A stretch of 60,853 nt of DNA from an uncultured Ruminobacter sp. (GTDB lineage: Bacteria > Pseudomonadota > Gammaproteobacteria > Enterobacterales > Succinivibrionaceae). Position numbers and translations under genes: made by a program. The notes under the pieces are model-generated. The model was given only the letters and a program-made list of their open reading frames with translations, searched no databases and had not been told where the DNA came from. Below, in pieces: positions 1,375 through 37,195 of this stretch (the first letter of the stretch is position 1; each line of letters starts with the position of its first letter). Location of the stretch: positions 1 through 60,853 of the forward strand of contig CACWVT010000015.1 of the NCBI GenBank assembly GCA_902764345.1, in the 5' to 3' direction.

Positions 1375-2679
<1,305 letters not shown>

Positions 2680-2730
2680 TCTGAACCCGGATTTTTCCGG
2701 AAGTCCTGATTCAGGTAAATAAGAAAAATG

Positions 2731-2770
2731 ATCCCGTGATATCAGATGATGGTGTCACGGGATTTCTTTT
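2731..2770 (+). terminator. Intrinsic terminator of serS
   Basis: Stem ATCCCGTGA (2731-2739) pairs with TCACGGGAT (2755-2763), followed by TTCTTTT. Confidence 0.85.
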
Positions 2771-2837
2771 GCCCGGATAAGTACCGCATCAGTAGAACAG
2801 ACCTGAAGCAGCGTCTTTATCACACGCATTACGACTG

Positions 2838-2900
2838 AAAAGAAAAATCCCGTACCGCAGCAGTAAATCTCATATGGAGTCACTGAGCGGTACGGGATTT
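2838..2900 (-). terminator. Intrinsic terminator of metG
   Basis: A 14-bp perfect stem, AAATCCCGTACCGC (2845-2858) with GCGGTACGGGATTT (2887-2900). Read on the minus strand it is followed by TTTCTTTT. Confidence 0.85.
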
Positions 2901-2930
2901 ATGGAGTTATGAAAGTCCTTTTAAGTCCTG

Positions 2931-20089: not shown

Positions 20090-22360
20090 ATGTTAAATAC
20101 CATTATCGGTTATCCGCGCATCGGCGGAAAGCGTGAACTCAAGTTCGCTCTTGAAAAGTACTTTAAGCATGAAATTCCTGCAGAAGAATTACAGAATGTT
20201 GCTGCAACCATCCGTAAGCAGCACTACGGCTATTTTGCTGAACAGAAGATTGATCTTGTTCCATGCGGTGATTTCTCTTTCTATGACAACATGCTCGATA
20301 CTGCCGTTCTGTTTAACATTATCCCTGAACGTTACGTAAAGGCCGGTCTGAATGCCCTTGATACTTATTTCGCCATGGCCCGCGGCGTGCAGACTTCCGG
20401 TGTTGATCTCAAGGCTCTGCCTATGAAGAAGTGGTTCAACACCAACTACCACTACATCGAACCTGAATTTGACGGTAAGAACGATGTTAAGTTTAATCCT
20501 GTATTCCTGTCAGGTCTCATTGACGAAGCCAATGAATTAAAGCTTAACTACAAGGTTGCTCAGATTGGTCCTTTCACTCTGTTAAAGCTTGTTAAGTACG
20601 TTGCAGGCACTTCAGTTAAGGATCTTAAGGATGACGTTGTTAACGGTTATGTTGAACTCCTTAAGTTCTGTGCTTCAAAGAACGCTTCATTCGTGTCTCT
20701 TGCTGAACCTTCACTGGTTAAGGATCTTACTGCTGAAGACAAGCAGCTCTTTGTTGAAATCTATACCAGACTTCTCGCTGAAAAGGGCAGTCTGAAGCTT
20801 GGTCTTGATACTTACTTCGGTGACATCAGAGACATTTATAACGAAGTTACCGGTCTTGGTTTTGATGCCATTTCTCTTGACTTTAAGGAAGGCAGAAAGA
20901 CCTTTGATCTCATCAGGGCAAACGGCTTCCCTAAGGATACCGTTCTCGTTGCAGGTTTAATCAACGGTAAGAACATTTGGCGCAGCAATTACGAAACCAT
21001 AATCAAGGCTCTTGATGAACTCAAGTCTTTAGGCATCAACTGCGTTCTCGGCTGCAGCTGTTCATTATTACACGTACCTGAAAGTACTGAATTTGAAACC
21101 AAGCTTTCAGAAAAGGTATTAAGCTATCTCTCATTTGCAAGACAGAAGCTTGCCGAACTCCATGAAATCAAAGCCATCGTTAACGGTGAAGAAGGTGCTG
21201 ACAAGTTCCTCGCTGCCAACAAGGCTCTGTTCAGTGTTAAGCGTGTTGAGGATGATGCCGCTCTTGATGCCAAGATCGCTTCATTAACTGATGCGGATTA
21301 CACCAGATTACCTGAAAGAACCGAACGTCTCAGCATTCAGCACAAGGTTCTCGGTCTGCCTTTATTCCCAACCACTACCATCGGTTCATTCCCTCAGACT
21401 GCTCAGATCAGAGCCTTAAGACGTGATTACAAGAACGGTGTTATCACCCAGCAGGCTTACGAAGACGGCATTGCAGCTCTTACCGTTGAGTGCATCAAGT
21501 TACAGGAAGACCTCGGTCTTGACGTACTTGTACACGGTGAATTCGAACGTAACGACATGGTTGAATACTTCGGTGAAAAGCTCGAAGGTTACATCTTCAC
21601 TCAGAACGGCTGGGTTCAGTCATACGGCAGCCGTTGCGTTAAGCCTCCTGTAATCTGGGGTAACGTAACCCGTAAGGAAGCCATGACCGTTAAGATGAGT
21701 GCCTTTGCAAACAGCAAGTCCGATAAGGATGTTAAGGGTATGCTCACCGGTCCTGTAACCATCTTCAACTGGTCATTCCCACGTGAAGATCTTCCTGTTA
21801 AGACTTCAATCCAGCAGCTTGCTCTTGCTTTAAGAGATGAAGTGCTTGATCTTGAAAAGGCCGGCATCAGAATCATCCAGATCGATGAAGCTGCATTAAA
21901 GGAAAAGTTACCGCTCCGTCGCAGTGACTGGGAAAGTGAATACCTCGATTTCGCAATTCCTGCATTCAGACTCGTTCACAGCGGTGTTAAGCCTGAAACT
22001 CAGATTCACACCCACATGTGCTACAGTGAATTCAACGAAATCATCCCTTGGATTGATGCAATGGATGCTGACGTAATCACCTTTGAAGCTTCACGTTCAG
22101 ACTTCGCTGTTCTTGATGCATTAAAGGCAAATAACTTCAAGACTGAAGTAGGTCCTGGTGTTTACGATATTCACTCACCTCGCGTTCCTTCAGTTGACGA
22201 AATCGTTAATGCTCTTAAGCTCATCGTTTCAAGAGAAGACTATCACAAGGTTTGGGTAAACCCTGACTGTGGTCTGAAGACCCGCGGCAACGAAGAAACC
22301 GTTAAGAGTCTCCAGAACCTGGTTGAAGCTGCCAAGATCTTAAGAAGTCAGTTCAACTAA
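20090..22360 (+). CDS. metE: Cobalamin-independent methionine synthase
   Basis: 756 residues (E. coli 753). Two barrel halves: the N-terminal half begins GYPRIGGKRELKFALEKYF, the C-terminal half begins TTTIGSFPQTAQIRALRRDY. The zinc ligands are visible in HTHMCYSEF (His and Cys) and NPDCGLKTRG (Cys). It transfers the methyl group of 5-methyltetrahydrofolate (triglutamate) directly to homocysteine. AAGGAGATGG stands before the ATG. Codon choice is extremely biased, indicating high expression. No metR gene is adjacent. Single gene with promoter and terminator. Confidence 0.97.
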   Translation: MLNTIIGYPRIGGKRELKFALEKYFKHEIPAEELQNVAATIRKQHYGYFAEQKIDLVPCGDFSFYDNMLDTAVLFNIIPERYVKAGLNALDTYFAMARGVQTSGVDLKALPMKKWFNTNYHYIEPEFDGKNDVKFNPVFLSGLIDEANELKLNYKVAQIGPFTLLKLVKYVAGTSVKDLKDDVVNGYVELLKFCASKNASFVSLAEPSLVKDLTAEDKQLFVEIYTRLLAEKGSLKLGLDTYFGDIRDIYNEVTGLGFDAISLDFKEGRKTFDLIRANGFPKDTVLVAGLINGKNIWRSNYETIIKALDELKSLGINCVLGCSCSLLHVPESTEFETKLSEKVLSYLSFARQKLAELHEIKAIVNGEEGADKFLAANKALFSVKRVEDDAALDAKIASLTDADYTRLPERTERLSIQHKVLGLPLFPTTTIGSFPQTAQIRALRRDYKNGVITQQAYEDGIAALTVECIKLQEDLGLDVLVHGEFERNDMVEYFGEKLEGYIFTQNGWVQSYGSRCVKPPVIWGNVTRKEAMTVKMSAFANSKSDKDVKGMLTGPVTIFNWSFPREDLPVKTSIQQLALALRDEVLDLEKAGIRIIQIDEAALKEKLPLRRSDWESEYLDFAIPAFRLVHSGVKPETQIHTHMCYSEFNEIIPWIDAMDADVITFEASRSDFAVLDALKANNFKTEVGPGVYDIHSPRVPSVDEIVNALKLIVSREDYHKVWVNPDCGLKTRGNEETVKSLQNLVEAAKILRSQFN

Positions 22361-22414
22361 TGTAACGGATGAAGTCAGTCTGAAACTTTGTTGATGACTG
22401 TTCACTAAATCAGG

Positions 22415-22444
22415 CCGGACGGTAATATCGTCCGGTTTTTTTTA
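22415..22444 (+). terminator. Intrinsic terminator of metE
   Basis: CCGGACG (22415-22421) pairs with CGTCCGG (22429-22435), then a run of nine T. Confidence 0.9.
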
Positions 22445-23511
22445 CTAGGTGAAACGGAGGCATACCTGTATTTTTAGGACGGTATTGCAGGCTGAGGTCT
22501 TCTATTCCGTACGTAATTCGGAACAGATCAGGTGCGTGGTGTACCTCGGATGTTTTCTGCAGATGGTGACTGTGTGTGCGAGACTGTTTTATCACGGTAT
22601 GTAGCATTAGTGCTGATGGCATACGGAGGCTATGGCATTGAGTTTCTTATCAGAGCTGTTCGTCAATATCCAAAAGCTCCCGAATGTAAGACGTTGGGTA
22701 GAGGCATATGACTTTTTTATGATGCAGGAATACAACAACGTAAAAGCCAATTATGAAAAGCCACAGAGAAGGATTCAGATGAATTGTTTAATTAGGAGCC
22801 TTTTGTCAATATTTGATGAGGAAAAGAGTAAATTATGAAGGTAAAAAATTGACTAAATTGTTATTAAATACAGAAAAGAACATCTTTGAGAATGTTAAAA
22901 AGAGGCACTTCTATCTATAAATAACATGACTATATATTTTAGATGGTAAATTTTTAAGCAAACAATACCATAATTATCTCAATAGCTTTATTTTGTGAGA
23001 ATAAACTAAGAAATAAATGCATGATTTGTGATAGTTTGAAATAAGTTTGGTTCGTCTGTTGTGAAGTTGACAAGGATATTGTTTTGAACGGGTAGATATT
23101 ACGGTAAACATGTGATGATTACGTTAATGTGACATAAAGAGATTTCACACTTACAATGTGTTAGGCTGAATACTATTAAAATTTGCAGTTTAATATTTTA
23201 CGGGGCGGATACCATTGTTAGATGTGTAAAATGCTGAGTATTACTAGTATTTTCCCCGAAATACTCTTTGAAAAACCTTGCGTTTATAGGTGTAAATTTA
23301 AGTTCCCCTAAAACTAGATACCAGAAAATAAATCCCCCTAATTGCTTGCATACTTACCAAAAAAGGGGGCCTTATATTATAATTATGCGCATATTTCGAC
23401 AAGTGAACAGTTTCTGGAAATGGATAATTCCGCAGTATGTTATTTGTTGTCACATTAATGGTCATATGCGAAGAGTACAATCAAAATAGGTTACATAATT
23501 TGAGGTGAACA
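22445..23511. other. AT-rich left boundary of the defence island
   Basis: About 1.07 kb without a gene I can support. Composition drops sharply in GC from about 22,640 onward. A 67-codon frame at 22632-22838 has no ribosome site or recognised family. In another frame 22570-22705 reads RYVALVLMAYGGYG and on to a stop; it could be a gene remnant, but I cannot identify it. No integrase, tRNA or direct repeat seen. The operon promoter at its right edge is listed separately. Confidence 0.45.
23354..23383 (+). promoter_or_regulatory. Probable promoter of the defence operon
   Basis: TTACCA (23354-23359), 18-bp spacer, TATAAT (23378-23383). It would give a leader of about 120 nt before the methyltransferase ATG, which has GAGGTGA at good distance. 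Confidence 0.5.
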
Positions 23512-24564
23512 ATGAGTTCGGAGATTAAGTATAGGCTTGGAGAGTTGTTTTGTGGTCCTGGTGGACTTGCATGGGGAGCAATTAATGCAAATGTTCCTGG
23601 AATGAAGATTGTACACAAATGGGCAAACGACTTTGATGCTGATACTTGCAAAACTTATACTCGTAATATCTGTCCTGATAATCCTGATAGTGTGTACTGT
23701 GAAGATGTTCATGTGTTGGATATAGATGAATTAGGTGATATCGATGCATTGGCCTTTGGTTTTCCTTGTAATGATTTCTCCGTTGTAGGAGAACAATTAG
23801 GTTTTAAGGGTAAGTACGGTCCTCTGTATACTTATGGGATAAGCGTGCTTCTACAATATAAGCCTCAGTGGTTTTTAGCCGAGAATGTCGGTGGCATACA
23901 ATCTGCGAATGAAGGTAAGGCGTTCAAGAGAATACAGAAGGATATGATAAATGCAGGATATCGCATTTATCCAAATTTATATCATTTTGAAGAATATGGT
24001 ATTCCTCAGGCTCGTCATAGGATGATCATTGTTGGTATACGTGAAGACTTGGATTTTGAATTTAAAATTCCTTCTCCATCACAATATAAAATGAAAACAT
24101 GCAAAGAAGCAATAGAGGTTCCACCAATCCCCTCTGATGCTCCTAATAACGAATTGACTAAACAATCTGCACATGTCGTTGAAAGATTAAAGTATATAAA
24201 GCCGGGACAAAATGCTTTTACAGCCGATATTCCGGAAGAATATCAACTTAAAGTTAAAGGTGCAAAGATAAGTCAGATATACAAAAGACTAGATCCTAAT
24301 AAACCATCATATACGATTACGGGTTCTGGCGGTGGAGGAACACATGTTTATCATTGGAAAGAAAATAGAGCTCTAACCAATAGAGAACGCGCCAGGTTGC
24401 AAACTTTTCCAGATGATTATGTTTTTGAAGGAAGCAAGGAATCTGTAAGAAAACAAATTGGAATGGCAGTTCCAGCCCAAGGAGCTAAGATAATATTCGA
24501 AGCTATCTTGAAAACATTTGCCGGCATTCCCTACGATTATGTTGAACCAAATTTGAAGGAGTAG
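23512..24564 (+). CDS. DNA (cytosine-5-)-methyltransferase
   Basis: 350 residues. C5-methyltransferase motifs are in order: motif I LFCGPGGLAWGA, motif IV with catalytic C86 in GFPCNDFS (the common form is PPCQ-FS), motif VI ENV at 124-126, motif VIII GIPQARHRMIIVG, motif IX/X NRERARLQTFPDDY and QIGMAVPA. It methylates cytosine at an unknown site. The variable region between VIII and IX, which holds target recognition, is about 100 residues, suggesting one specificity. First gene of an eight-gene run; the next starts 4 bp after its stop. Expected role: protection of host DNA or marking for the downstream nucleases. Confidence 0.93.
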   Translation: MSSEIKYRLGELFCGPGGLAWGAINANVPGMKIVHKWANDFDADTCKTYTRNICPDNPDSVYCEDVHVLDIDELGDIDALAFGFPCNDFSVVGEQLGFKGKYGPLYTYGISVLLQYKPQWFLAENVGGIQSANEGKAFKRIQKDMINAGYRIYPNLYHFEEYGIPQARHRMIIVGIREDLDFEFKIPSPSQYKMKTCKEAIEVPPIPSDAPNNELTKQSAHVVERLKYIKPGQNAFTADIPEEYQLKVKGAKISQIYKRLDPNKPSYTITGSGGGGTHVYHWKENRALTNRERARLQTFPDDYVFEGSKESVRKQIGMAVPAQGAKIIFEAILKTFAGIPYDYVEPNLKE

Positions 24565-24568
24565 ACCT

Positions 24569-26131
24569 ATGGCAACATTGAATTATTGGTGGGTCACAAG
24601 ACCTAAAAGAAAACTAAATAGTATTCCAGAGGTTTTGGCTGCCTTTTCAAATGTTGCTCTTTCTGTAAGATGGTCAGCGTCAAGAAATGTGCATATTCTC
24701 TTTGAAGAAGAACTTGAACGTGATGGATTAAAACGTGTCGGTGAACGTCGGGATCATTCGGGATCTGGAGGAAGAACCTATCAGGCATGGCTGTCAAGTT
24801 TAGGACTTATATTTATACAAGAGAGCACAGGAACTCCTTTTTTGACTTTGGCGGGAGAAGCCATTTTATCTGGAAAGTCTCCTGTTGAAATACTAAAGAA
24901 TCAGGTTCTGAAATATCAGTTTCCTTCCCCGTTTGGAATTAAAACCCACGTATCAGAAAAGTTTAAGGTGCATCCTTTTATCTTTTTGCTCAGACTTCTC
25001 AGTGATTCAAGAATTGAGTACCTGACGGAAGAGGAAATTGCTAAGGTCGTTATGACTGAAGGGATTAATGATTCCGAAAGGTGTTTCGAGTATGTTGTAG
25101 AGAGATTGTTAGCTTTTCGAGAATCGGGAGATAAATCTCTACCAGGTGATTTCATTGTTACGCATGCTCCTTCCACAGGTAGAGTTAATTTAAATCATCC
25201 ATACAGTCATCTTAATGATACTGCTAATACAATGGTTAACTGGCTCGAATATACCCAGTTGATATTCCGAGATGAAGGAAAAATGATGATTTCTCCTGAA
25301 AAGAATGAAGAGGTCAATAGAATTCTCTCGCAGAAATTATCGTTCATAGATCGTCCAGAAGATCATGAATTCTTCCAAAGGAAATATGGATTGGATCCCT
25401 GGCACCAGAAAGATACTCGTAATCTTTTGAATACGGGAACGGTATCAAGTAAATTAATAGATATGCAACGCATAAGGCAAGCTTTTATTGCCTTCTCTAT
25501 GCATCGTCCAATAGCACAGATTGGCGCCGATATCGTATCAGAAATAGCCTTGCAGACTGGTACAGATAAAGTTCTTGTGGAAACAGTTTTGTATAAAGAG
25601 TACCCACACGGTGCTATTGGAGGGTTCCTTTCAAGATACTATGAGATGGCATTTAAAGGGCGCGATGAGGCTGTAGATTTTGAAATTGCAACTACAAGCA
25701 TATTCAAAGATATTCTTGGTTACAATGCTATTCATCTTGGTCAAACTGGTAGCAAGTCTGCTCCAGATATTCTTTTGATATCTGATGATGATGGGTATCA
25801 AGCAATTATCGATAATAAAGCATATAGCAAGTATTCGATAAGTGGTGATCATCATAATCGTATGGTTCATAACTATATTGAAAATGTATCGAATTATAGT
25901 GATTCCCAGTATCCAATAGGATTTTTCTCATACATTGCTGGAGGGTTTATTAATACGATTGATAGGCAAATTCAGGCAGAGGTCGATGAGTGTCATGTAT
26001 GCGGTTCAGGAATAACCGTTGGAACATTCATTAAGTTGCTTGAAAGACACAATCAAAAAAATTATTCCCATTCGGAGTTAAGAGAATTGTTTTCTCTTAA
26101 TCGACAAATTCTTTTATCTGATATTAGATAG
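24569..26131 (+). CDS. Type II restriction endonuclease with FokI-like cleavage domain
   Basis: 520 residues. The C-terminal ~150 residues resemble the FokI cleavage domain: SAPD (P399, D400) and IIDNKAYSKY (D415, K417) give the PD...D-x-K active site. Next come a helix with MVHNYIEN and the segment YPIGFFSYIAGGF, equivalent to the FokI region around its VSGHF. The N-terminal ~370 residues contain a winged-helix-like start and presumably bind the target; they recall AlwI-type annotations, but I cannot confirm that. FokI-type enzymes cut outside an asymmetric site and must dimerise. It sits between the methyltransferase and the GHKL ATPase, with gaps of 4 and 10 bp. Confidence 0.75.
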   Translation: MATLNYWWVTRPKRKLNSIPEVLAAFSNVALSVRWSASRNVHILFEEELERDGLKRVGERRDHSGSGGRTYQAWLSSLGLIFIQESTGTPFLTLAGEAILSGKSPVEILKNQVLKYQFPSPFGIKTHVSEKFKVHPFIFLLRLLSDSRIEYLTEEEIAKVVMTEGINDSERCFEYVVERLLAFRESGDKSLPGDFIVTHAPSTGRVNLNHPYSHLNDTANTMVNWLEYTQLIFRDEGKMMISPEKNEEVNRILSQKLSFIDRPEDHEFFQRKYGLDPWHQKDTRNLLNTGTVSSKLIDMQRIRQAFIAFSMHRPIAQIGADIVSEIALQTGTDKVLVETVLYKEYPHGAIGGFLSRYYEMAFKGRDEAVDFEIATTSIFKDILGYNAIHLGQTGSKSAPDILLISDDDGYQAIIDNKAYSKYSISGDHHNRMVHNYIENVSNYSDSQYPIGFFSYIAGGFINTIDRQIQAEVDECHVCGSGITVGTFIKLLERHNQKNYSHSELRELFSLNRQILLSDIR

Positions 26132-26141
26132 GTATAAGAAT

Positions 26142-27647
26142 ATGCTTGATATAAATGATTATGAATTAGCCAATCCCAATGCAGCGTCTCTAATTCAATC
26201 TTTGCGCGCTTTTGGATATGATATTTCAACTGCCGTTGCTGATTTGATTGATAACAGCATAACAGCCAATGCGAGCGATATATCGATTTCATTTGACTGG
26301 AATTCCGGGGCCCCATTTATCTCAATAGCTGATGATGGTTATGGGATGACAGAGACTGAGCTGTTTGAGGCAATGAAAACAGGTAGCAAGAATCCTCTCG
26401 ATACCAGAGACGAACGTGATTTGGGTAGATTCGGGCTGGGTTTAAAGACTGCGTCTTTTTCACAATGTAAGAGGTTAACAGTAGCCTCAAAGACAAATGA
26501 TTCCTCGATAAACGTTCGTTGTTGGGATTTAGACATTGTTAATGAAACAAATGAATGGATATTGTTGAAGAAAGTGACGAACACAGCTAACAGGATCATT
26601 GATGATGTCTTTTCTGATAGGAAACATGGAACAGTAGTTATTTGGGAGAAACTTGACAAAATAGTACCGGACGAATGTGTGGATGATGAAGACTACCAAA
26701 AGGCATTCTTGAATTATGCAAAACAAGTTAAGAACCATATTTCACTGGTTTTCTCTAGTTATATGAAAGGAAGTAAGCGTGTATTGTTTAAACTAAATAA
26801 TCGTGCTGTTGATTTGTGGGATCCATTTATGTCAGATTGTACGTTTACTTCTCTTCAGCCTTCTGAAACACTATATATAAATGGACACGAAGTAACTATT
26901 AAGCCATATATCCTTCCTCATCAAAGTAAAATTTCAACTGAAGATTTTGCTTTATATGGTGGCCTACATGGTTGGAATGAACAGCAGGGATTCTACATAT
27001 ATAGAAATAACAGACTGATTGTTGCAGGTGCTTGGTTGTTGCCTGATATGGAGAAGAAAGAGCAATATAGATTAGCTCGCATAAGGATTGATATTGGTAA
27101 TGAGACTGATAGCGAATGGGGAATTGATGTAAGAAAATCAATCGCTATTCCTCCCATCCCCATACAGAAAGAATTACGTCGCATTGCTGTAGTAGCGCAA
27201 AAAGAATCAGCGAAAGTCTATAGACATAGGGGCAAGAAACTTGCTCGTAATTCATCAAAGATACAAGCATATGTTTGGCAACAAAATCTTCGTTCGGGGA
27301 AAATATGTTATTCAATAAATCGAGAGCATCCAATAATTAAGCAACTGCTGTCTTCTTCTAACAAAAAGGAAGTGGCCAAATTAATTGACTTGATTGAAGA
27401 AACGGTTCCGGTTCCTATGATTATTTCTGATTATTCTGAAAAGTCTGATGAAATGCTGAATCCTTTTGAAGGCAGAACTACGAATCAATTTGACGATATG
27501 ATAGATGCTTTATACGAAATGTATCGTTCAAATGGTTATTCACCTCAAGAAGCGGTTAAGAATATTGCAAGTACAGAACCATATATATATGCCCCTGAAA
27601 AAGTGCAATTATTTTGTGAACGGGAAGGAATTGATGTATATGAATAA
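26142..27647 (+). CDS. MORC/MutL-type GHKL ATPase of a restriction-like system
   Basis: 501 residues. The N-terminal ~200 residues are a GHKL (Hsp90/MutL/MORC) ATP-binding fold. Motif N1 is ADLIDNSITA (D34, N38), the G1 box is IADDGYGM, and DLGRFGLGLKTAS is the ATP lid with glycine box. At the position of the general base (Glu in MutL ELVEN and in MORC AELIDN) there is Asp34. An S5-like second domain follows, with a Lys/Arg near IDVRKS. No HNH or transducer-linked nuclease is visible at the C-terminus. Families of this kind were placed in predicted restriction systems with Z1 and AIPR proteins (Iyer et al. 2008). It probably loops or clamps DNA in an ATP-dependent way. It overlaps the Z1 gene by 8 bp. 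Confidence 0.85.
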   Translation: MLDINDYELANPNAASLIQSLRAFGYDISTAVADLIDNSITANASDISISFDWNSGAPFISIADDGYGMTETELFEAMKTGSKNPLDTRDERDLGRFGLGLKTASFSQCKRLTVASKTNDSSINVRCWDLDIVNETNEWILLKKVTNTANRIIDDVFSDRKHGTVVIWEKLDKIVPDECVDDEDYQKAFLNYAKQVKNHISLVFSSYMKGSKRVLFKLNNRAVDLWDPFMSDCTFTSLQPSETLYINGHEVTIKPYILPHQSKISTEDFALYGGLHGWNEQQGFYIYRNNRLIVAGAWLLPDMEKKEQYRLARIRIDIGNETDSEWGIDVRKSIAIPPIPIQKELRRIAVVAQKESAKVYRHRGKKLARNSSKIQAYVWQQNLRSGKICYSINREHPIIKQLLSSSNKKEVAKLIDLIEETVPVPMIISDYSEKSDEMLNPFEGRTTNQFDDMIDALYEMYRSNGYSPQEAVKNIASTEPYIYAPEKVQLFCEREGIDVYE

Positions 27648-30453
27648 AGGTAGCCTTAGAGATAAAGTCTATGATCTTGTTTATGACTTTTTGTGCCAAA
27701 AAATAATAACAACTGAGAATCTTGGTGAAGAGATACACAAACATTCTATAAGTTTATCTTCCTACTATAAGGATGAAGTTATAGATGAAGAAGAATTATT
27801 AAGAACAATATTGTTAAATTATGGTGTTTTTGAAGGACACTCAAGTGTGCTCGAAGATAATAGGGATCATATTGAGTGGTTAGCAAATGAAAGGGCTGGT
27901 ATTAAATGGAATTTTTGGAATCGATACGAATGGTATTTAAGTAAAAAAGAACGACTTCCTGAACCGGTTATTTCTGAAATAGATAACACAAGTGAAGAAA
28001 TATTGAAAAGACTTGAAAGCCCACGTAGAGAAGGTGCCTGGGATAGACGAGGAATGGTTGTTGGCAATGTTCAATCAGGAAAAACGAGCAATTATATTGG
28101 GCTTATAACAAAAGCAGTAGATGCTGGTTACAAAATAATCATAGTCTTGGCTGGGTTAAATAATGATTTGAGAAGCCAGACGCAAAAGAGAATCGATTGC
28201 GGTTTTATTGGTAGAGATACTCGGAAGAAAGAGTCATATGATCAAACATCATCAAGGATAGGTGTCGGTTGGAATCCTAACGTGCCAAATCTTCCAATCA
28301 ATGCTGTTACCAGCGCAGATGCAAGTGGTGATTTTAAAAAGACATCGCATAAAAATGTTACGATAATTCCGGGTGGAGATCCAATTGTTGCAGTTGTTAA
28401 GAAGAATGTAACTCCTTTAAGGAATTTGTATAACTGGTTTTCAAGTGAAAACACATCAGGTAGGATATCAAATGTTCCTCTATTGCTTATAGATGATGAG
28501 GCAGATAATGCATCTATCGACACCAATGCGGATAAAAAGATAGGTGAAACAGAAGTTGATCCGGATTTAGAAGAAGAACAGGATCCGACGAAGATTAATG
28601 GTTATATACGACAAATTCTAAACTGTTTTTCTCAAAGTGCATACGTTGGATATACGGCTACACCTTTCGCTAATATTTTTATCTATCCATCAGATATAAA
28701 TAATATCGGTGAGAAATACGGTGAAGATTTATATCCCAGAAGCTTTATTGTAAATTTGCACGCTCCTTCAAACTATATAGGTCCAGACAAAGTCTTTGGA
28801 TTATATAAAGATAAAATTGCAAATATACAAGAAGTTAAACCTTTGCCGCTAATAAGAATTACAGATGATTATCAATCTGTAATTCCTGAAAAGCACAAAA
28901 AAGATCTTAAAGTCACTTCACTGCCTAATTCGCTTTACAGGGCAATTTATTCTTTTATTATTGCCGGAGCAATACGCAATATTAGAGGTCAAGGAAAAAA
29001 GCATCATTCAATGCTTGTCCATGTTACTCGTTTTGTTGATGTTCAAACGCAGTTGGTTGAACTTCTTAAGTCTGCCCGAAAAGAAATCGTTAATCAACTT
29101 GAGTTTAAAACAGGTCCACAGTATGAAACGCTCATAAATGTAATAAAAGATCTATGGGAAAAAGACTTTTTACCTACCACCAATTCTGTTATTACATCCT
29201 TAAATGATCCTTTGATACGCATTTGTACGTGGGAGGAAATAGAACCGAAACTGTACGAAATTGCTTCAAAGATAGAGGTCAAGGCTGTAAATGGAAAAGC
29301 AACTGATGGTGGCCTGAATTATGATGACTACCCTGATGGATACTTTGTAATAGCTGTTGGTGGTGACAAGCTTTCAAGAGGACTGACTTTATCCGGCTTG
29401 ACAGTAAGCTATTATGCTCGATTATCGAAAGCATATGACACTCTGCTTCAAATGGGAAGATGGTTTGGGTATAGAGATGGATATGCAGATGTGTGCAGAT
29501 TGTATACCAGTTCCCAACTTAATGAGTGGTATCGTCATATTGCTGTAGCTAATGAGGAACTTAAAAACGAATTAGATGACATGGCAGAATTAGGTGCTAC
29601 ACCTGAAAGCTATGGATTAAAAGTGAGAACTCATCCTGACGGAATGTTAATTACAGCTATGAATAAGATGAGGAATTCCGAAATTAGACAGGTCACATTT
29701 GCAGGAAAGCTTGCTCAAATTACTAGGTTCTATAAAGAAAACAACTGTAATCAGAGAAATATTCTCTTTGTAAAAAAGTGGCTTCCGAAGCTTGGAACAC
29801 CAGTACTTCCTTCTGTACAGACAAGGAACAATTATCTTTGGAAGGATATCGATCCTGAATTAGTGTTGGAATTTTTAAAGAATATTTATGTACACCCAAC
29901 ATGTTCAAATGCATCACCAAAGATTCTTTCTGATTACATTAGAAGCCAAAATGAGGATGGGGAGTTAATTAATTGGTCTGTAGCACTTGTTTCGTCAAAA
30001 CAAGGCACAAGCTTTTCGTATGGAAATGGGATAGAAATTGGAATGTCTTGGCGTACTGATGATGTTAGCAATCGTGGTTCGGAGAACGATGATACAATCT
30101 ATTTAATTAGAAACAATCTGATTACGGAATCAGATCAAGATGTTGATCTCACACAAGAACAAAAAGATGAGGCACTAAGGATAACTATAAATAATTGGAA
30201 GCCAGATCTACGATCTCCAAAAACGCCTACAGACCCATCTCCTAAGTATATAAGGCAGTGCAGAGATAAAACGAACGGTTTGTTACTTATATATACACTT
30301 GAATCTGGGCTGTTGGATGAAAAAGGAGAAAAAAAGACGGTTTATTCAGATAAGTATTTAGGGTATGCCATCAGCTTTCCGACTAGTGATACTGCTAAGC
30401 CAGTAGAGTATAAGGTGGACGAGGTGTATTTAAGAAATGGAACAGATGAATGA
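27640..30453 (+). CDS. Z1-domain superfamily II helicase-like ATPase
   Basis: 937 residues from the ATG at 27640 (AAGGAA 10 bp upstream; another ATG lies two codons earlier). The hallmarks of the Z1 family are complete. The P-loop is VGNVQSGKTSN (K148), Walker B is LIDDEADNAS (D285-D289), motif III is GYTATPFAN, and motifs V-VI are GGDKLSRGLTL and LQMGRWFGYR (Q604, R607). Regions after ~700 are less conserved. It should translocate on or remodel DNA using ATP. Z1 proteins nearly always travel with GHKL ATPase, DUF4420 and AIPR genes, as here. Overlaps both neighbours. Confidence 0.93.
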   Translation: MNKGSLRDKVYDLVYDFLCQKIITTENLGEEIHKHSISLSSYYKDEVIDEEELLRTILLNYGVFEGHSSVLEDNRDHIEWLANERAGIKWNFWNRYEWYLSKKERLPEPVISEIDNTSEEILKRLESPRREGAWDRRGMVVGNVQSGKTSNYIGLITKAVDAGYKIIIVLAGLNNDLRSQTQKRIDCGFIGRDTRKKESYDQTSSRIGVGWNPNVPNLPINAVTSADASGDFKKTSHKNVTIIPGGDPIVAVVKKNVTPLRNLYNWFSSENTSGRISNVPLLLIDDEADNASIDTNADKKIGETEVDPDLEEEQDPTKINGYIRQILNCFSQSAYVGYTATPFANIFIYPSDINNIGEKYGEDLYPRSFIVNLHAPSNYIGPDKVFGLYKDKIANIQEVKPLPLIRITDDYQSVIPEKHKKDLKVTSLPNSLYRAIYSFIIAGAIRNIRGQGKKHHSMLVHVTRFVDVQTQLVELLKSARKEIVNQLEFKTGPQYETLINVIKDLWEKDFLPTTNSVITSLNDPLIRICTWEEIEPKLYEIASKIEVKAVNGKATDGGLNYDDYPDGYFVIAVGGDKLSRGLTLSGLTVSYYARLSKAYDTLLQMGRWFGYRDGYADVCRLYTSSQLNEWYRHIAVANEELKNELDDMAELGATPESYGLKVRTHPDGMLITAMNKMRNSEIRQVTFAGKLAQITRFYKENNCNQRNILFVKKWLPKLGTPVLPSVQTRNNYLWKDIDPELVLEFLKNIYVHPTCSNASPKILSDYIRSQNEDGELINWSVALVSSKQGTSFSYGNGIEIGMSWRTDDVSNRGSENDDTIYLIRNNLITESDQDVDLTQEQKDEALRITINNWKPDLRSPKTPTDPSPKYIRQCRDKTNGLLLIYTLESGLLDEKGEKKTVYSDKYLGYAISFPTSDTAKPVEYKVDEVYLRNGTDE

Positions 30454-31438
30454 GGCATTATTAAATGAGCTTTGGATTAATTTGGAGAGAAAAGTAACCA
30501 CACAACAAAACACCTTGCAACAACTAATAGCACCAACTAGCTTATTTAGGCTGTTTATTGGGGTTGATGGTTTGCCAACACGTCGTTTCATAAGTGTAGA
30601 AATTCCAGAGAACCAAAAGAAAACAGTGTTAGGGATTAAACCTATTCAAGGAATAGATGTATCTGTCTGTAAACCACCTATATCGCACGATGGTTATTGT
30701 TCTTGTGTATTGCAGTCTGCCGCACATGATCAAAATGACGTATTTTCTATTGTGGCGAGTGATATATTGTTCGAACTTAATTCCTGTAAAAGTAATAATG
30801 CATATGTAGATATCTTAGTTGAAAGAATAGCCAAATGGCGTGAGTTTTTTAAAAGAAAGCACAATTCTTTGTCTGATAGTGAAATCATCGGACTGATTGG
30901 TGAACTACAATTTGCAGAGGATATTATGTCTGAAGGTTTTGGTCAAATACTTGATAGTTGGAGTGGACCTATTAAATCTGCCCATGACTATAAAATGCCA
31001 GCCTTTTTAGCGGAGATTAAAGCTAAATCAACAGATCAATTGACTTCTGTGAAAATATCTAGCGAAGAACAATTAAATAGAGAAGATGATTCTCCTTTGT
31101 TTCTGGTTGTTTATCGATTGGAAGAAAGTCCTAAAGGAATGAATTTGCACGACAAGGTTCAATCAGTTGCGTTGAAACTATCAGATTCAAGAAAAAGCAT
31201 TTTCTATGCAAAGCTTCTGTGTATAGGTTATCAAAAAGAAGAAAATTATAGTAAAAAGTATATTGTTAAAGAACGTCGCCAATATAGAGTTGAAAATGAT
31301 TTTCCCCGAATAATCACCCCCAATCTCCCATCAGGTACATTTGGTGTAGTTTACAATCTATCCATCGAAAAATGCACTCCGTACCAGGTGGATTTTAACC
31401 AGGTGATTGATTGTTATAAAGAGGCGCTAAATGGCTAA
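30437..31438 (+). CDS. DUF4420 PD-(D/E)XK-family protein
   Basis: 333 residues. The middle has a helix GLIGELQFAEDIM (residues ~153-165), then D184 and the strand LAEIKAK with E193 and K195, forming a D...E-x-K nuclease-like site. The rest is beta-rich. DUF4420 members are predicted nucleases of the PD-(D/E)XK fold linked to Z1-containing restriction systems. The gene overlaps the end of the Z1 gene by 17 bp and the start of the AIPR gene by 8 bp, so the three are probably translated together. Whether it cuts DNA, or supports a complex in which the FokI-like protein cuts, is open. Confidence 0.85.
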   Translation: MEQMNEALLNELWINLERKVTTQQNTLQQLIAPTSLFRLFIGVDGLPTRRFISVEIPENQKKTVLGIKPIQGIDVSVCKPPISHDGYCSCVLQSAAHDQNDVFSIVASDILFELNSCKSNNAYVDILVERIAKWREFFKRKHNSLSDSEIIGLIGELQFAEDIMSEGFGQILDSWSGPIKSAHDYKMPAFLAEIKAKSTDQLTSVKISSEEQLNREDDSPLFLVVYRLEESPKGMNLHDKVQSVALKLSDSRKSIFYAKLLCIGYQKEENYSKKYIVKERRQYRVENDFPRIITPNLPSGTFGVVYNLSIEKCTPYQVDFNQVIDCYKEALNG

Positions 31439-33542
31439 TAATATAGAATTAGTGAAGTTTTATAAAGACCTAAGTCAGGAGATAATTAATAAGGCTACTC
31501 TCGAAGAAACAGAGGAATTCAGAGAGAATATTTTTACGCAGATATATATTGATTATTTGTGTGAAGCTGCAGAAATAGAGGATGGCAACATTGCCTATCA
31601 TGAGGCTCGGGGAATTAAGGTCAATGGATATAGTATTGCTGAAGATGAGACGTATATAGCCTTGTTTGTCTCGATATACAAAAATAGTCCGGATGTCTAT
31701 TCTGTTCCTCCTTCTGATGTCTTAGCTATGGTAAATAGGGCGAAGAATTTCTATCTCAAATCTATGAACAAGTATCATCTTGAAGTTGAGGAAGCTTATG
31801 GCGTTTTTGATTTAGCAAAGACTATATATGATTATCGAGATAAGATTAATGAAGTTAAGATAATTTTAATGACCAATGGAACAGTTAGAAATATGAATTT
31901 GCCTCCAATTGAGGAGGATGGCATTTCATTTATGGCTTCCGTATGGGATGTTGAACGAATATATCGTGTATCAACGTCTGGTTCAGCAAGGGAAAAAATA
32001 GAGATTGATCTAGAATCATTAACTGGTAAAGCATTAAGTGCAATTAAAATTAATGTTCCTGAGTGCAAAAAATACGATGCTGACGGTAACTCAATCATAA
32101 GCGGAGGTTATGTTACATATCTTACTATTATTCCGGGGGATGTATTATTTACTATATATAAGGCATATGATGCAAGATTGCTTGAGAAAAATGTTAGAGC
32201 ATTTTTGCAGGTTCGTGGCAATGTTAATAAAGGAATTAAATCGACTATTACAAATACTCCTGAAATGTTTTTGGCGTACAACAACGGAATATCTGCAACC
32301 GCTGAAAGTGTTTCTTTACGCAATGAAACGAATGAGCAATGTGTTATTACTGGACTTAAGGATTTTCAAATTGTTAATGGCGGTCAAACGACAGCATCTA
32401 TCTACAATGCTTGTATTAAGAATCAACAGCCATTAGACAAGATTTTTGTGCAAGCTAAAATAACTGTCTTGAACAATCAAGAGCAGATGGATGTTGTTGT
32501 GCCTCAGATCTCTGCTTGTGCGAATACTCAGAATAAGGTTCAATTAGCTGATTTCTCAGCTAATGATGAATTCCATCAATCGATTGAAAGATTGTCAAGA
32601 ACAGTATGGGCGCCTGCAAAAACAGGTGGTGAGCAACAAACGAAATGGTTCTATGAAAGAGCAAGAGGACAGTATGCTGATATTCGTTCCCGTGAGAAGA
32701 GTTCAAAGTACTTTGATTCGATATATCCAAAGACTCAGTATTTTGACAAACTTGATTTAGGACGATATGAGAATGCATGGGAACAATTACCATATATCAC
32801 TAGCAAAGGCGGCCAGGCCTGTTTTAGAGATTTTACACTTAGGTTAAAGGAACGAGGTAAATTTGAACCGGATCAAGATTATTATCAGAATTTAATAGCA
32901 AAGACTATTCTATATAGAAAGGTTCGGGCAATTGTTAAATCTCAGAGATTTCAGGGCTTTTGGGCTAATATAGCGGATTATACGGTAGCTTATATTAGTT
33001 ATATATCTGGTCAGAGAATTGATCTTCAGAAAATCTGGCGAAATCAAGATACAACAGAAGCATTTGACAAGCAAGCTGAAATAGTTGCGAATGCAGTTTA
33101 TAAATATTTGATTGATGAATGCTCTGGCATGAATGTGACTCAGTGGTGTAAAAAAGAAAAGTGTTGGAATACAATCAGAGAGAACTTGAATATTTCTTTA
33201 TCTCCAGAGTTAGAAAATGAATTAATTCAGTTGGGAAATAGAACTACAACCTCAGTATCACAGGGGATTTATTCTGCTAATTCCAAGGAGAAGCAGTTAA
33301 TTGAGGCCATACAAAAAGTTGATTATTCCGTATGGTTTAGTATTTCTTCATGGGGAAAAGAAACCAGAAATCTTAAGCCCTTTCAAAACGGCATTGCATT
33401 TACACTTGGCAAATATGCACGTTCACAAAAAGAACCTTCACGAAAGCAGGCAAACCAAGGATTAGTTATTCTTCAAACAGCTGTCGAAAAAGGATTTGTT
33501 ACCGATGACATCGCTAAAGATATAGTAAAAAGTTTTTCGTAA
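31431..33542 (+). CDS. AIPR-family (abortive infection phage resistance) protein
   Basis: 703 residues. The AIPR core is clear: NNGISATAE, then the signature FQIVNGGQTTASIYN, VVPQISACANTQNKVQLADF, and KWFYERARGQYADIRSREK followed by FDKLDLGRYENAWEQLP. The N-terminal ~200 residues hold a PD-(D/E)XK-like region reported for this family, but I cannot place its catalytic residues with confidence. AIPR proteins were named for abortive-infection phage resistance and are frequent in restriction-like islands. The molecular activity is not settled. Followed after 21 bp by the helicase gene. Confidence 0.9.
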   Translation: MANNIELVKFYKDLSQEIINKATLEETEEFRENIFTQIYIDYLCEAAEIEDGNIAYHEARGIKVNGYSIAEDETYIALFVSIYKNSPDVYSVPPSDVLAMVNRAKNFYLKSMNKYHLEVEEAYGVFDLAKTIYDYRDKINEVKIILMTNGTVRNMNLPPIEEDGISFMASVWDVERIYRVSTSGSAREKIEIDLESLTGKALSAIKINVPECKKYDADGNSIISGGYVTYLTIIPGDVLFTIYKAYDARLLEKNVRAFLQVRGNVNKGIKSTITNTPEMFLAYNNGISATAESVSLRNETNEQCVITGLKDFQIVNGGQTTASIYNACIKNQQPLDKIFVQAKITVLNNQEQMDVVVPQISACANTQNKVQLADFSANDEFHQSIERLSRTVWAPAKTGGEQQTKWFYERARGQYADIRSREKSSKYFDSIYPKTQYFDKLDLGRYENAWEQLPYITSKGGQACFRDFTLRLKERGKFEPDQDYYQNLIAKTILYRKVRAIVKSQRFQGFWANIADYTVAYISYISGQRIDLQKIWRNQDTTEAFDKQAEIVANAVYKYLIDECSGMNVTQWCKKEKCWNTIRENLNISLSPELENELIQLGNRTTTSVSQGIYSANSKEKQLIEAIQKVDYSVWFSISSWGKETRNLKPFQNGIAFTLGKYARSQKEPSRKQANQGLVILQTAVEKGFVTDDIAKDIVKSFS

Positions 33543-33563
33543 CCTGTTATTGTGAGGTTTTTG

Positions 33564-35579
33564 ATGAATAAGTATACGTTTTCAACTCAAACGGGAAAAG
33601 CATATTATTGCAACTCTATACCAGGCTTTTTGAATGACAAATCTGCTTCTATCATTGGTCAATTAGTAAGGCACTCTTTTGAAGTCAATAAAGAACAGTC
33701 AGATGCATGGGACAACCAGATTTCACAGTTGCAGGCAAAACTCGAAGAATGTGGCGTAGAAGGCGATATTATCTTTGAATACGATATAGTTAGATTAGGG
33801 AAGAGAATAGATGTAATACTATTAATAAAGCATATAGTCTTTTCCTTGGAGTTTAAGAACGGAAAAAATATATTTGTTGCACAAGATGCTCAACAGGCCG
33901 AAGACTATGCAATAGACATAAAGAACTTCCATAAAGAATCAGAAGATCTATACGTTTGTCCTATTTTGATAGCTACTAATGCTCCTAAGTATAAGAAAGA
34001 ACAATCTATAGATTGTTATCCTGACAAGCAGATCTTTCTCCAAAGGGAGAATATGGATACATTCACTCCGAAACTGACTTCGATTATTGAACGATATGGA
34101 GACAACGAAATAATTGATTTTGAAAAATGGTTTAATTCTCCTTATCACCCTACTCCAACAATTATTGCGGCTGCAGTCGAGGCTTATACATCGCATGATA
34201 TAAGTCAAATTGCTCAATCGGAAGCCGGCCAGGACAATATCGATAAATGCGAAAGAGAAATAGAAAGAATCATTAATTATGCCCGAGACAATCACAGGAA
34301 GTGTGTTTGTTTTGTCACAGGTGTACCTGGAGCAGGAAAAACTCTAGTTGGTCTTGATGTTGTTGCTAAGAATCTGAACAAGGGAAAAGATAACTTAAGC
34401 GTTTATTTATCCGGCAATGGTCCGCTTGTCGAGGTTCTTCGAGAAGCCTTAAAAAGAAGCGTTAAGGAGAAAATGTCCAAAGAAAGCAAAGAGGTCAAAA
34501 GAGAAACAGAAACCGCTATTAACACACTAATTCAGAGCAGTTATTCTTTTAAAAAAGATAATGCAAAAAATGTACTTCCAACTCCTGAACATATTATGAT
34601 TTTTGATGAAGCTCAGCGAGTATGGAACGAGCAGAAAATGACAAGCAAACATGAAAAGGATCCTGTGATGTCCGTTAGTGAACCTCATCTTCTTTTTCGA
34701 ATAATGGACAGACATGAACAATGGGCAGTAATGATTTGCTTAGTAGGACTCGGTCAAGATATATATGACGGTGAAGTTGGAATTAACGAGTGGTTTTGTT
34801 GCGGAATCGATGATTATAAAGACTGGGAGATGTTTTATTCATCTGCTATATTTAGCCAGACAGAAGACAAAAACATAGATAAAGACAAAATATTGAGCTG
34901 TGAAAGATGCCATCAAGTGGATTCGCTTCACTTAAAGACATCAGTAAGATCGTTTAGAGCAGATAAGCAATGCCAGTTTGTAGATTACCTTCTTGACAAT
35001 AAACCTGATAATGCAAGAAAGATATATGAGCAGATAAAAGAAAAATATCCCGTTTATATCACACGAGATGTTGAAGTAGCAAAGAAATGGGCTAAGAATC
35101 AAGTAAGAGGCTCACAGCGCTGTGGTGTGCTTGCCTGTAGTAGTGCGCAACGTCTTAAACCAGAGGGAATATACGTTCCTAAAGATATTGATGTTAAAAA
35201 CTGGTTTTTGGCTCCAAGCGATGACTTAAGATCATCTAATATGATGGAAGTTGTTGCCAGTGAATTTAAGGTGCAGGGTTTAGAAATTGATTGGGCCGTG
35301 GTTTGTTGGGATGCTGATTTACGCAGAAAAAATTTGAACGAATGGGATCATTATTATTTTCATGGAACCAAGTGGCTTCATAGAAATAAGGAAGAACAAA
35401 AGAGATATTTGGTTAATTCATATCGAGTCCTGCTTACTAGAGCACGACAAGGAATGATTATATTTGTACCAAAGGGAGGCGATCCTGATGAGGATCCTTC
35501 GCGTTATTATAATTTCTACAATCAAATATATGAGTATTTGATTGATTGTGGAATAGAAGAGATGATAAAAGGAGAATAA
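33564..35579 (+). CDS. Nuclease-DUF2075 helicase fusion (Schlafen-group helicase)
   Basis: 671 residues from the ATG at 33564, with TGTGAGG 7 bp upstream; a GTG at 33552 is less likely. The N-terminus has a nuclease-like motif, D83 in RIDVIL and E96-x-K98 in LEFKNG. The helicase part has a P-loop VPGAGKT (K259), Walker B IFDEAQRVW (D348, E349), the sensor LVGLGQDIY, and late motifs VQGLEIDWAVVCW and YRVLLTRARQG. This is the DUF2075 layout, a superfamily I-like group related to Schlafen helicases. It may degrade or unwind DNA made accessible by the upstream proteins. It is not a standard member of the Z1/AIPR core. Confidence 0.88.
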   Translation: MNKYTFSTQTGKAYYCNSIPGFLNDKSASIIGQLVRHSFEVNKEQSDAWDNQISQLQAKLEECGVEGDIIFEYDIVRLGKRIDVILLIKHIVFSLEFKNGKNIFVAQDAQQAEDYAIDIKNFHKESEDLYVCPILIATNAPKYKKEQSIDCYPDKQIFLQRENMDTFTPKLTSIIERYGDNEIIDFEKWFNSPYHPTPTIIAAAVEAYTSHDISQIAQSEAGQDNIDKCEREIERIINYARDNHRKCVCFVTGVPGAGKTLVGLDVVAKNLNKGKDNLSVYLSGNGPLVEVLREALKRSVKEKMSKESKEVKRETETAINTLIQSSYSFKKDNAKNVLPTPEHIMIFDEAQRVWNEQKMTSKHEKDPVMSVSEPHLLFRIMDRHEQWAVMICLVGLGQDIYDGEVGINEWFCCGIDDYKDWEMFYSSAIFSQTEDKNIDKDKILSCERCHQVDSLHLKTSVRSFRADKQCQFVDYLLDNKPDNARKIYEQIKEKYPVYITRDVEVAKKWAKNQVRGSQRCGVLACSSAQRLKPEGIYVPKDIDVKNWFLAPSDDLRSSNMMEVVASEFKVQGLEIDWAVVCWDADLRRKNLNEWDHYYFHGTKWLHRNKEEQKRYLVNSYRVLLTRARQGMIIFVPKGGDPDEDPSRYYNFYNQIYEYLIDCGIEEMIKGE

Positions 35580-35591
35580 AGGAGTGTTTTT

Positions 35592-36236
35592 ATGGATCAT
35601 AATCTAAAAGATCTGATAACCCAATTTATGAGGTTGGTAGGAGAAGGTAGTATAGAAGTTTATAATGAATTTAGTTTACAGCACGAATTAGGTATTTATT
35701 TACGTCAATGTTTACAGGAAGAAAAAGAAGAAGAAAAGTATAAGTATAAGGTTCAGTTTGAAAGAAATGTTAATTTCTTTCAAAAAGACAAAACAATAAA
35801 ACACAAAACAATAAAACACGAAATAGATATTGTGATTTACGATGAAAATGATGATTCGGAAAGATATGCTATAGAACTGAAGTGTCCTCACAATGGGCGG
35901 ACCCCAGAAACAATGTATGACTTTGTGAAGGATATAAGATTCATGGAGCAGTTGAATGAATTGGGGTTTAAGAAAACTTATTGTTTAATACTTGTTGAAG
36001 ATAAAAATTTTTATTCAGGCAAAAGTAAAGAAGACGATATTTATGCTTATTTTCGAGCCCGCAAACCGCTAAAGGGTAGGATATTGAAACCAACAGGAAA
36101 AGGAAAAAATAGAGATGGCATATTGATATCGGGGGAATATGTTATTAGTTGGCAATTTTGCATAAGTAACGATAAAACAGCTAATAGAAGGTATTGCCTT
36201 GTTGAAGTTATTGGGCATGAGCAACAGACCGCATAA
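35592..36236 (+). CDS. Small PD-(D/E)XK-like protein ending the defence operon
   Basis: 214 residues, no recognised named family. It has a restriction-like core: D79 in HEIDIVIYDE and E95-x-K97 in AIELKCP, followed by a helix (FVKDIRFMEQLNELG) and strand KTYCLILVEDK, the order seen in many PD-(D/E)XK folds. A perfect 15-bp tandem duplication (35790-35819) encodes a repeated TIKHK just before the first catalytic residue. It starts 12 bp after the helicase stop. Likely an accessory nuclease or a structural relative that lost activity. Confidence 0.7.
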   Translation: MDHNLKDLITQFMRLVGEGSIEVYNEFSLQHELGIYLRQCLQEEKEEEKYKYKVQFERNVNFFQKDKTIKHKTIKHEIDIVIYDENDDSERYAIELKCPHNGRTPETMYDFVKDIRFMEQLNELGFKKTYCLILVEDKNFYSGKSKEDDIYAYFRARKPLKGRILKPTGKGKNRDGILISGEYVISWQFCISNDKTANRRYCLVEVIGHEQQTA

Positions 36237-36314
36237 CCTAGAGATGAGTGATGCAAAATTGAGTATGTGAAAAAAAATTCTGTAAATAGAAAAACATCCT
36301 GAGAATTTTTTAAA

Positions 36315-36389
36315 GCAGTGACCTTTAGTATGAACCCCGTTATCAATCAAGTGATCAATAACGGGGTTCATACTACTTCCGGTTACTGC
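36315..36389. other. Long near-perfect inverted repeat after the defence operon
   Basis: An 18-bp perfect stem (36326-36343 with 36358-36375; core GAACCCCGTTAT) and a 14-nt loop. An outer stem GCAGTGACC / GGTTACTGC (36315-36323, 36381-36389) has one G-T pair. The total is about 27 paired bases. TTTTGTGTT follows. It could be a strong terminator on either strand, or the end or remnant of a mobile element. Confidence 0.75.
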
Positions 36390-36509
36390 TTTTGTGTTAT
36401 TAATATTACCTGTTTGTTTTTATAAATCAAGATTTATGTTTTATAAATAAAATAATCAATTATTTCTATTTAAATTTAATTATTTTTATTAAAAAACAAA
36501 ATAATTCCT

Positions 36510-36540
36510 AGACGGAAGTTTCAGCTTCTGTCTTTTGTTT
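36510..36540 (+). terminator. Hairpin with T-rich tail
   Basis: AGACGGAAG (36510-36518) pairs with CTTCTGTCT (36525-36533, one G-T pair), then TTTGTTT. No gene directly upstream now uses it, so it may be a leftover of lost DNA. Confidence 0.55.
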
Positions 36541-36612
36541 ATACCGGAAATCAGTCTGGTAATCGGCCTTCATACATTATCTGTGGACGTAATGTGATTT
36601 AGCAGGCCAGCT

Positions 36613-36680
36613 TTAACCAAATTACTTTACCATCGTTAACCAAATAGTTTACCACCTCTAACTTAATTATCAGGCCATCT
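36613..36680. repeat. Three ~22-23-bp tandem units, IS21-like terminal repeats (set 1)
   Basis: TTAACCAAAT occurs at 36613 and 36636, with a diverged third copy CTAACTTAAT at 36658. Between them are CTTTACCATC, GTTTACCACC and CAGGCCATC at the same period. Spaced inner repeats of this kind are typical of IS21-family element ends. Confidence 0.5.
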
Positions 36681-36794
36681 ATAATTTTTTCTGGCAGATT
36701 TGGAAGGATAACCAGCATAACCGCCGATTATCCTATTCGTCAGTTACTTAAGAAACTTAGGAGGAAACAGTTCCGTACTCTGGTCACTTGTAGA

Positions 36795-36839
36795 ACGATC
36801 GAAAAAGTTGACCACTTAAACGATCGGAAGTTGACCACT
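36795..36839. repeat. Two ~23-bp units, IS21-like terminal repeats (set 2)
   Basis: ACGATCG followed by AAGTTGACCACT appears twice; AAGTTGACCACT is at 36805-36816 and 36828-36839, exactly 23 bp apart. The unit resembles set 1 (AGTTTACCAC against AGTTGACCAC). No istA or istB gene is present nearby, so this is a relic or solo end. Confidence 0.55.
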
Positions 36840-36899
36840 CCGATTTTAACTTAAACTTTCATTCGCTACCTGATAAATTGTTTTTAGGTTTCTGACATA

Positions 36900-37166
36900 G
36901 GTACGGATATCCCTGAACAGCTTGATCATTTTGTTGTTTCCATTCAGAGCTTCAATTCCAAAAAGCTTACTGACGTCGTTAAACCTGATTTTTATGATGA
37001 TATTGTCGTTGACGAATGCCACAATGTGGCAGCTCCTTCATATCAGGAGCTTTTGGACTACTTCAGACCAAAGACTCTTTTGGGGCTTACTGCTGACAGC
37101 AGTAAAAAATGGAATGACCGGTATTTCTTCCGTTCATTCCGTCATTACGAAAGGTCCGTGTCATAA
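36900..37166 (+). pseudogene. Decayed fragment of a superfamily II DEAD/DEAH helicase
   Basis: Reading 36900-37166 gives an open frame without start codon. It contains VVSIQSFNSKKL, then DDIVVDECHNVAAPSYQELL, DYFRPKTLLGLTAD, and a stop at 37164. This is the stretch from motif Ia through Walker B (DECH) to motif III of a superfamily II helicase of the kind with an FDYVIVDEFHHAAA motif. After LTAD the expected motif is lost. Upstream motif I and downstream motifs IV-VI are absent. It is a remnant of an earlier defence or mobile gene in the same hotspot. Confidence 0.75.
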
Positions 37167-37195
37167 TCATGACCGGACCTCATTGTGTCAAACCT

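Follow-up and report, generated by a model that had tools for sequence, protein, structure and literature searches.

We analysed a window of 60,853 nucleotides (contig CACWVT010000015.1 of assembly GCA_902764345.1, positions 1 to 60,853) from an uncultured Ruminobacter sp. It carries a block of eight genes in which a methyltransferase-nuclease pair, four genes resembling mzaBCDE, a nuclease-helicase fusion and a small nuclease-like gene follow one another. On recomputation all eight open reading frames are intact and lie on the plus strand (23512-36236), as a preliminary description of the locus had it. Its spacings of +4, +10, -8, -17, -8, +21 and +12 bp are reproduced when MzaC is taken to start at the internal ATG at 27640 and PDC-S41 at that at 33564. 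The features are as follows.

23354..23383, plus strand: promoter-like match, TTACCA-18-TATAAT, 128 bp 5' of the first ATG
23512..24564, plus strand: gene 1, C5-cytosine DNA methyltransferase, 350 amino acids (Pfam DNA_methylase, 242 bits)
24569..26131, plus strand: gene 2, FokI/AlwI-family restriction endonuclease, type IIS-like, 520 amino acids (Pfam FokI_cleav_dom, 45.8 bits; cut-off 25)
26142..27647, plus strand: gene 3, MzaB-like MORC GHKL ATPase, 501 amino acids (HATPase_c_3, 115.9 bits; PADLOC and NCBIfam MzaB profiles)
27640..30453, plus strand: gene 4, MzaC, from the internal ATG at 27640
30437..31438, plus strand: gene 5, MzaD-like DUF4420 PD-(D/E)XK nuclease, 333 amino acids (DUF4420, 185 bits; PADLOC and NCBIfam MzaD profiles)
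31431..33542, plus strand: gene 6, MzaE-like AIPR protein with AIPR_N, 703 amino acids (AIPR, 306.7 bits; AIPR_N, 131.4 bits; MzaE profiles)
33564..35579, plus strand: gene 7, PD-(D/E)XK nuclease fused to a DUF2075/SLFN-group-3 helicase, PADLOC candidate PDC-S41, 671 amino acids (SLFN-g3_helicase, 245.9 bits)
35592..36236, plus strand: gene 8, PD-(D/E)XK-like protein of no named family, 214 amino acids (motif, model and Foldseek)
36326..36375, plus strand: strong hairpin with an 18-bp stem, directly 3' of the last gene
36510-36533: T-tailed terminator-like site, downstream of that hairpin

Seven of the eight products proposed in the preliminary description are backed by Pfam, PADLOC and NCBIfam jointly, including the C5 methyltransferase, the GHKL ATPase, the DUF4420 and AIPR proteins, and the FokI-like nuclease between methyltransferase and ATPase; gene 8, however, has no family above cut-off in any of the three. 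Catalytic motifs are seen in gene 2, MzaB, MzaC, MzaD, PDC-S41 and gene 8. A terminator scan (22300-37300) returned three sites, none of them within 23512-36236. Promoter-like sites, that at 23354 included, are rarer than chance in the scanned region (35 seen, 55.4 expected). The eight genes have a GC content of 0.32-0.38 (0.27-0.30 at third codon positions), against 0.45 and 0.47 in the two flanks, so that the block looks like a single acquired unit.

Gene 1 has the motifs GFPCN and ENV. It is 72-73% identical to the methyltransferases of loci L040 and L043, the latter adjoining an NgoFVII endonuclease, and 61.5% identical to a Priestia methyltransferase that itself adjoins an AlwI-type nuclease. 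Gene 2 carries the catalytic motif PD-x15-D-x-K (residues 399-417) and matches the PADLOC REase_II profile (E-value 1E-30) and, among PDB entries, the large subunit of N.BspD6I/R.BspD6I (E-value 1E-7); an NCBIfam search gave no match. Since 14 of the 15 plasmids with a gene-2 relative also have a gene-1 relative, genes 1 and 2 are, judged by sequence, a free-standing type II pair: methyltransferase and endonuclease are adjacent, have their catalytic motifs and recur jointly, as in AlwI/Bsp6I-like restriction-modification (R-M) pairs. The gene-2 relatives on plasmids, where annotated, are mostly called "AlwI family type II restriction endonuclease," a family that includes Bsp6I (GCNGC) according to the relevant part of PMC9799307. 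From the related methyltransferases and the printed family specificities only, we infer that genes 1 and 2 may share one recognition sequence. The pair resembles plasmid pairs annotated as AlwI-family endonuclease plus DNA cytosine methyltransferase, but the layout differs: the Geobacillus pair is convergent, the Exiguobacterium pair is divergent and both are accompanied by a small additional gene, whereas genes 1 and 2 are in tandem without one. A Vsr gene lies near the Geobacillus pair.

Genes 3-6 are homologues of MzaB, C, D and E, in the order of MZA (mzaABCDE), a system reportedly due to Gao et al. in 2020. They differ from it in that none of the four products reaches its NCBIfam equivalog cut-off (429/850, 713/1500, 136/420 and 367/1050 bits for MzaB to MzaE) and in that the contig lacks an MzaA sigma-70-like gene. 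This comparison rests on the NCBIfam and PADLOC profiles and on a section of PMC9523054. The MORC motif of MzaB, GFYIYRNNRLI, spans residues 283-293, with G283, Y287, R288 and R291 invariant in 39 aligned homologues; MzaC has the helicase motif DTLLQMGRWFG; and E156, D184, E193, K195 and Q212 of MzaD are invariant in 41 aligned homologues. By phmmer (E-value up to 0.1), MzaC, MzaE and PDC-S41 have no sequence relative in PDB. The MzaA model NF041931 gave only sub-cut-off matches in the genome, on contigs 12, 4 and 1 and none on contig 15, and a home-made MzaA profile had no match in the window. As that model is for a sigma-70 family protein, we read these matches as probable ordinary sigma factors; an FtsH-like identity for MzaA, suggested by its length and by matches in all eight genomes scanned, was wrong for the same reason.

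The preliminary description matched the C5 methyltransferase, GHKL ATPase, Z1, DUF4420 and AIPR set to a class predicted in silico by Iyer et al. 2008 (PMC2292703). With the MORC/paraMORC R-M operons of that paper, which have a distinct superfamily 2 helicase, the locus shares the MORC motif, the DThhQXuRhFG helicase motif, a protein of restriction-endonuclease fold and a cytosine methylase, but the Vsr-type endonucleases that the paper calls frequent were found neither in the window nor in the 92%-complete genome. For the putative defence system "Type II" (PMC9523054, Nat Commun 2022), the text section that describes it names neither a FokI/AlwI-type nuclease nor PDC-S41 nor any terminal nuclease. 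In CglI/NgoAVII, as presented in parts of PMC4267653 and PMC5737866, the endonuclease is of the PLD-B3 type, whereas the one here is FokI-like and accompanied by MORC, DUF4420 and AIPR proteins; no Pfam match to PLD or NgoFVII occurs among the eight proteins. A literature search by Mza gene names returned unrelated papers only.

Gene 7 bears out the nuclease-DUF2075 helicase fusion proposed earlier. Its PDC-S41 match is nearly full-length (789.5 bits, residues 16-671 of 675) and covers an N-terminal nuclease and helicase motifs; NCBIfam matches are weak only. Besides the ATG at 33564, a GTG at 33552 is a possible start, and in numbering from that GTG, E76, D87, E100-x-K102, Q115 and Walker A are invariant in nine homologues. 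Relatives occur in 13 of 398 genomes of the phylum, this one counted, and in four plasmid records, none of them among the 51 with MzaC; the viral-contig scan found none. Within the family, PDC-S41 is present in two of 54 genomes, this one and that of L037. The L037 copy (39% identity over 688 columns) stands last in the order MzaB-C-D-E-methyltransferase-Vsr-S41. A strong MzaC match (E-value up to 1E-100) was found in six of 56 family genomes.

In gene 8 the motif reads D79...E95-x-K97, with D replaced by N in one distant relative. Its predicted structure has a pLDDT (predicted local distance difference test) of 71 from a three-row alignment, against 41 from the single sequence. Motif and this moderate-confidence model would fit the PD-(D/E)XK assignment made before, which stays tentative; the top Foldseek match, to the restriction-endonuclease-like fold of 3ijm (prob 0.99), has an E-value of 9E-3, short of 0.001. 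No relative was found in 397 other genomes of the phylum, in plasmids or phages, or, by single sequence, in viral contigs; two of 96 other relatives have a match (49% and 28%), and when viral contigs were scanned with an alignment, six loci emerged, of which five are at 47-50%. The relatives are thus 28-50% identical overall and come mostly from viral contigs. By sequence, gene 8 looks like mobile cargo outside the core. A phage-type integrase lies a few genes upstream of the relatives in L113, L116, L117 and also L110, and other neighbours are GmrSD-type restriction genes (L113, L114), a DUF4268 gene (L116) and a helicase gene (L115).

We also considered, and rejected, that gene 8 might provide the small catalytic subunit for a heterodimeric, BspD6I-like gene-2 enzyme. 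Small genes overlap the AlwI-type nuclease genes on plasmids of Geobacillus, Exiguobacterium and Priestia (L119 7890-8294, L120 4282-4809, L056 12929-13438). They show no nuclease motif by eye, bear little resemblance to one another and have no match to gene 8 (hhalign probability 0.1); the Priestia one, which was run against Pfam, belongs to no family there.

How are these modules related to each other? We surveyed 45 other MzaC loci. B-C-D-E is contiguous in 36, a methyltransferase is present in 41 and Vsr in 32. Of the last two genes of the block, PDC-S41 recurs once, in L037 and in another order, and gene 8 at none of the 45. Each module thus has relatives outside this arrangement, so the single large machine proposed earlier is not supported. 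Nor would genes 2, 7 and 8 be obligate core subunits in general, since nearly all other core loci lack them and since 13 of the 14 plasmids with the gene 1-2 pair lack the core.

On balance, we lean towards a co-transcribed stack of restriction layers, in which the eight genes would be expressed together and the layers would share one methyl mark. Several points weigh against it. All eight genes could simply sit side by side in a defence island; any coupling to the core is uncommon, with an AlwI-type nuclease at one of the 45 loci and PDC-S41 at one; gene 2 shares no more than 24-33% identity with its relatives on plasmids, so that a common site with them is uncertain; and the Priestia locus has no recognisable MzaB or MzaE. 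A rather unlikely alternative is that repeated insertion fortuitously brought together a type II pair, an Mza-like core, PDC-S41 and a prophage-type nuclease, which would act independently and have only their transcription in common. It would fit the 44 of 45 loci without gene 2 and the 44 without gene 7, and the single plasmid (Priestia) that joins MzaC to the gene 1-2 pair. It would also fit the absence of any relative of the other seven proteins both from eight gene-8-relative loci, several of which adjoin integrase and restriction genes, and from eight PDC-S41 loci elsewhere (flanks of eight of 12 in the phylum, that of L045 over 3 kb on one side only). Against it, both family copies of PDC-S41, in two of the six genomes with strong MzaC matches, sit in the Mza operon type with differing gene orders; the methyltransferase and AlwI-type pair joins MzaC-MzaD again in another phylum (Priestia); and the block is closely spaced and uniform in composition. 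Least of all do we expect abortive infection, in which the restriction pair would act first and, once it fails, the cell would be killed or arrested by toxic back-up effectors, namely the AIPR protein, PDC-S41 and gene 8: AIPR is expanded as "abortive infection phage resistance protein" in a legend of PMC2292703 and MzaE scores 84.7 bits against AbiU in PADLOC, but this is below its 285 bits for MzaE, and DNA-nuclease motifs with a methyltransferase equally fit self/non-self restriction.

A general replacement of Vsr by a restriction enzyme is not established, as nucleases lie near MzaC loci both with and without Vsr, among the part of the neighbours that was annotated. Near Vsr-less loci there are EcoRII (L041, L042), AlwI-type (L056), AspBHI-like (L058), HNH (L088) and Mrr-type (L090, and further off L105) nucleases; L040, L101 and L102 have Vsr plus a nearby nuclease. 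Other proteins occur at some loci. In L062 (14713-18543, Sinorhizobium meliloti plasmid), MzaE is directly followed on the same strand by a 1276 amino acid protein whose match to the CHAT domain is marginal (25.2 bits against a cut-off of 24). In L002 (13566-15479), a 637 amino acid protein with weak RecF/Rad50/ABC-type ATPase matches takes the place of MzaD, between MzaC and MzaE. The Hymenobacter plasmid locus L059 has an additional GHKL protein (2108-4321) between methyltransferase and MzaB; it bears the annotation sensor histidine kinase and is reminiscent of the HEF_HK genes in passages of PMC8011034.

As for the flanks, the gene 5' of the block (20090-22360) reads by eye as metE. On the 3' side, a gene on the opposite strand (37196-38683) has weak, sub-cut-off zinc-ribbon matches. 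Between it and the block, a 92-residue open stretch (36888-37163) scores 46 bits against the ResIII helicase family and is apparently the relic of a helicase gene.
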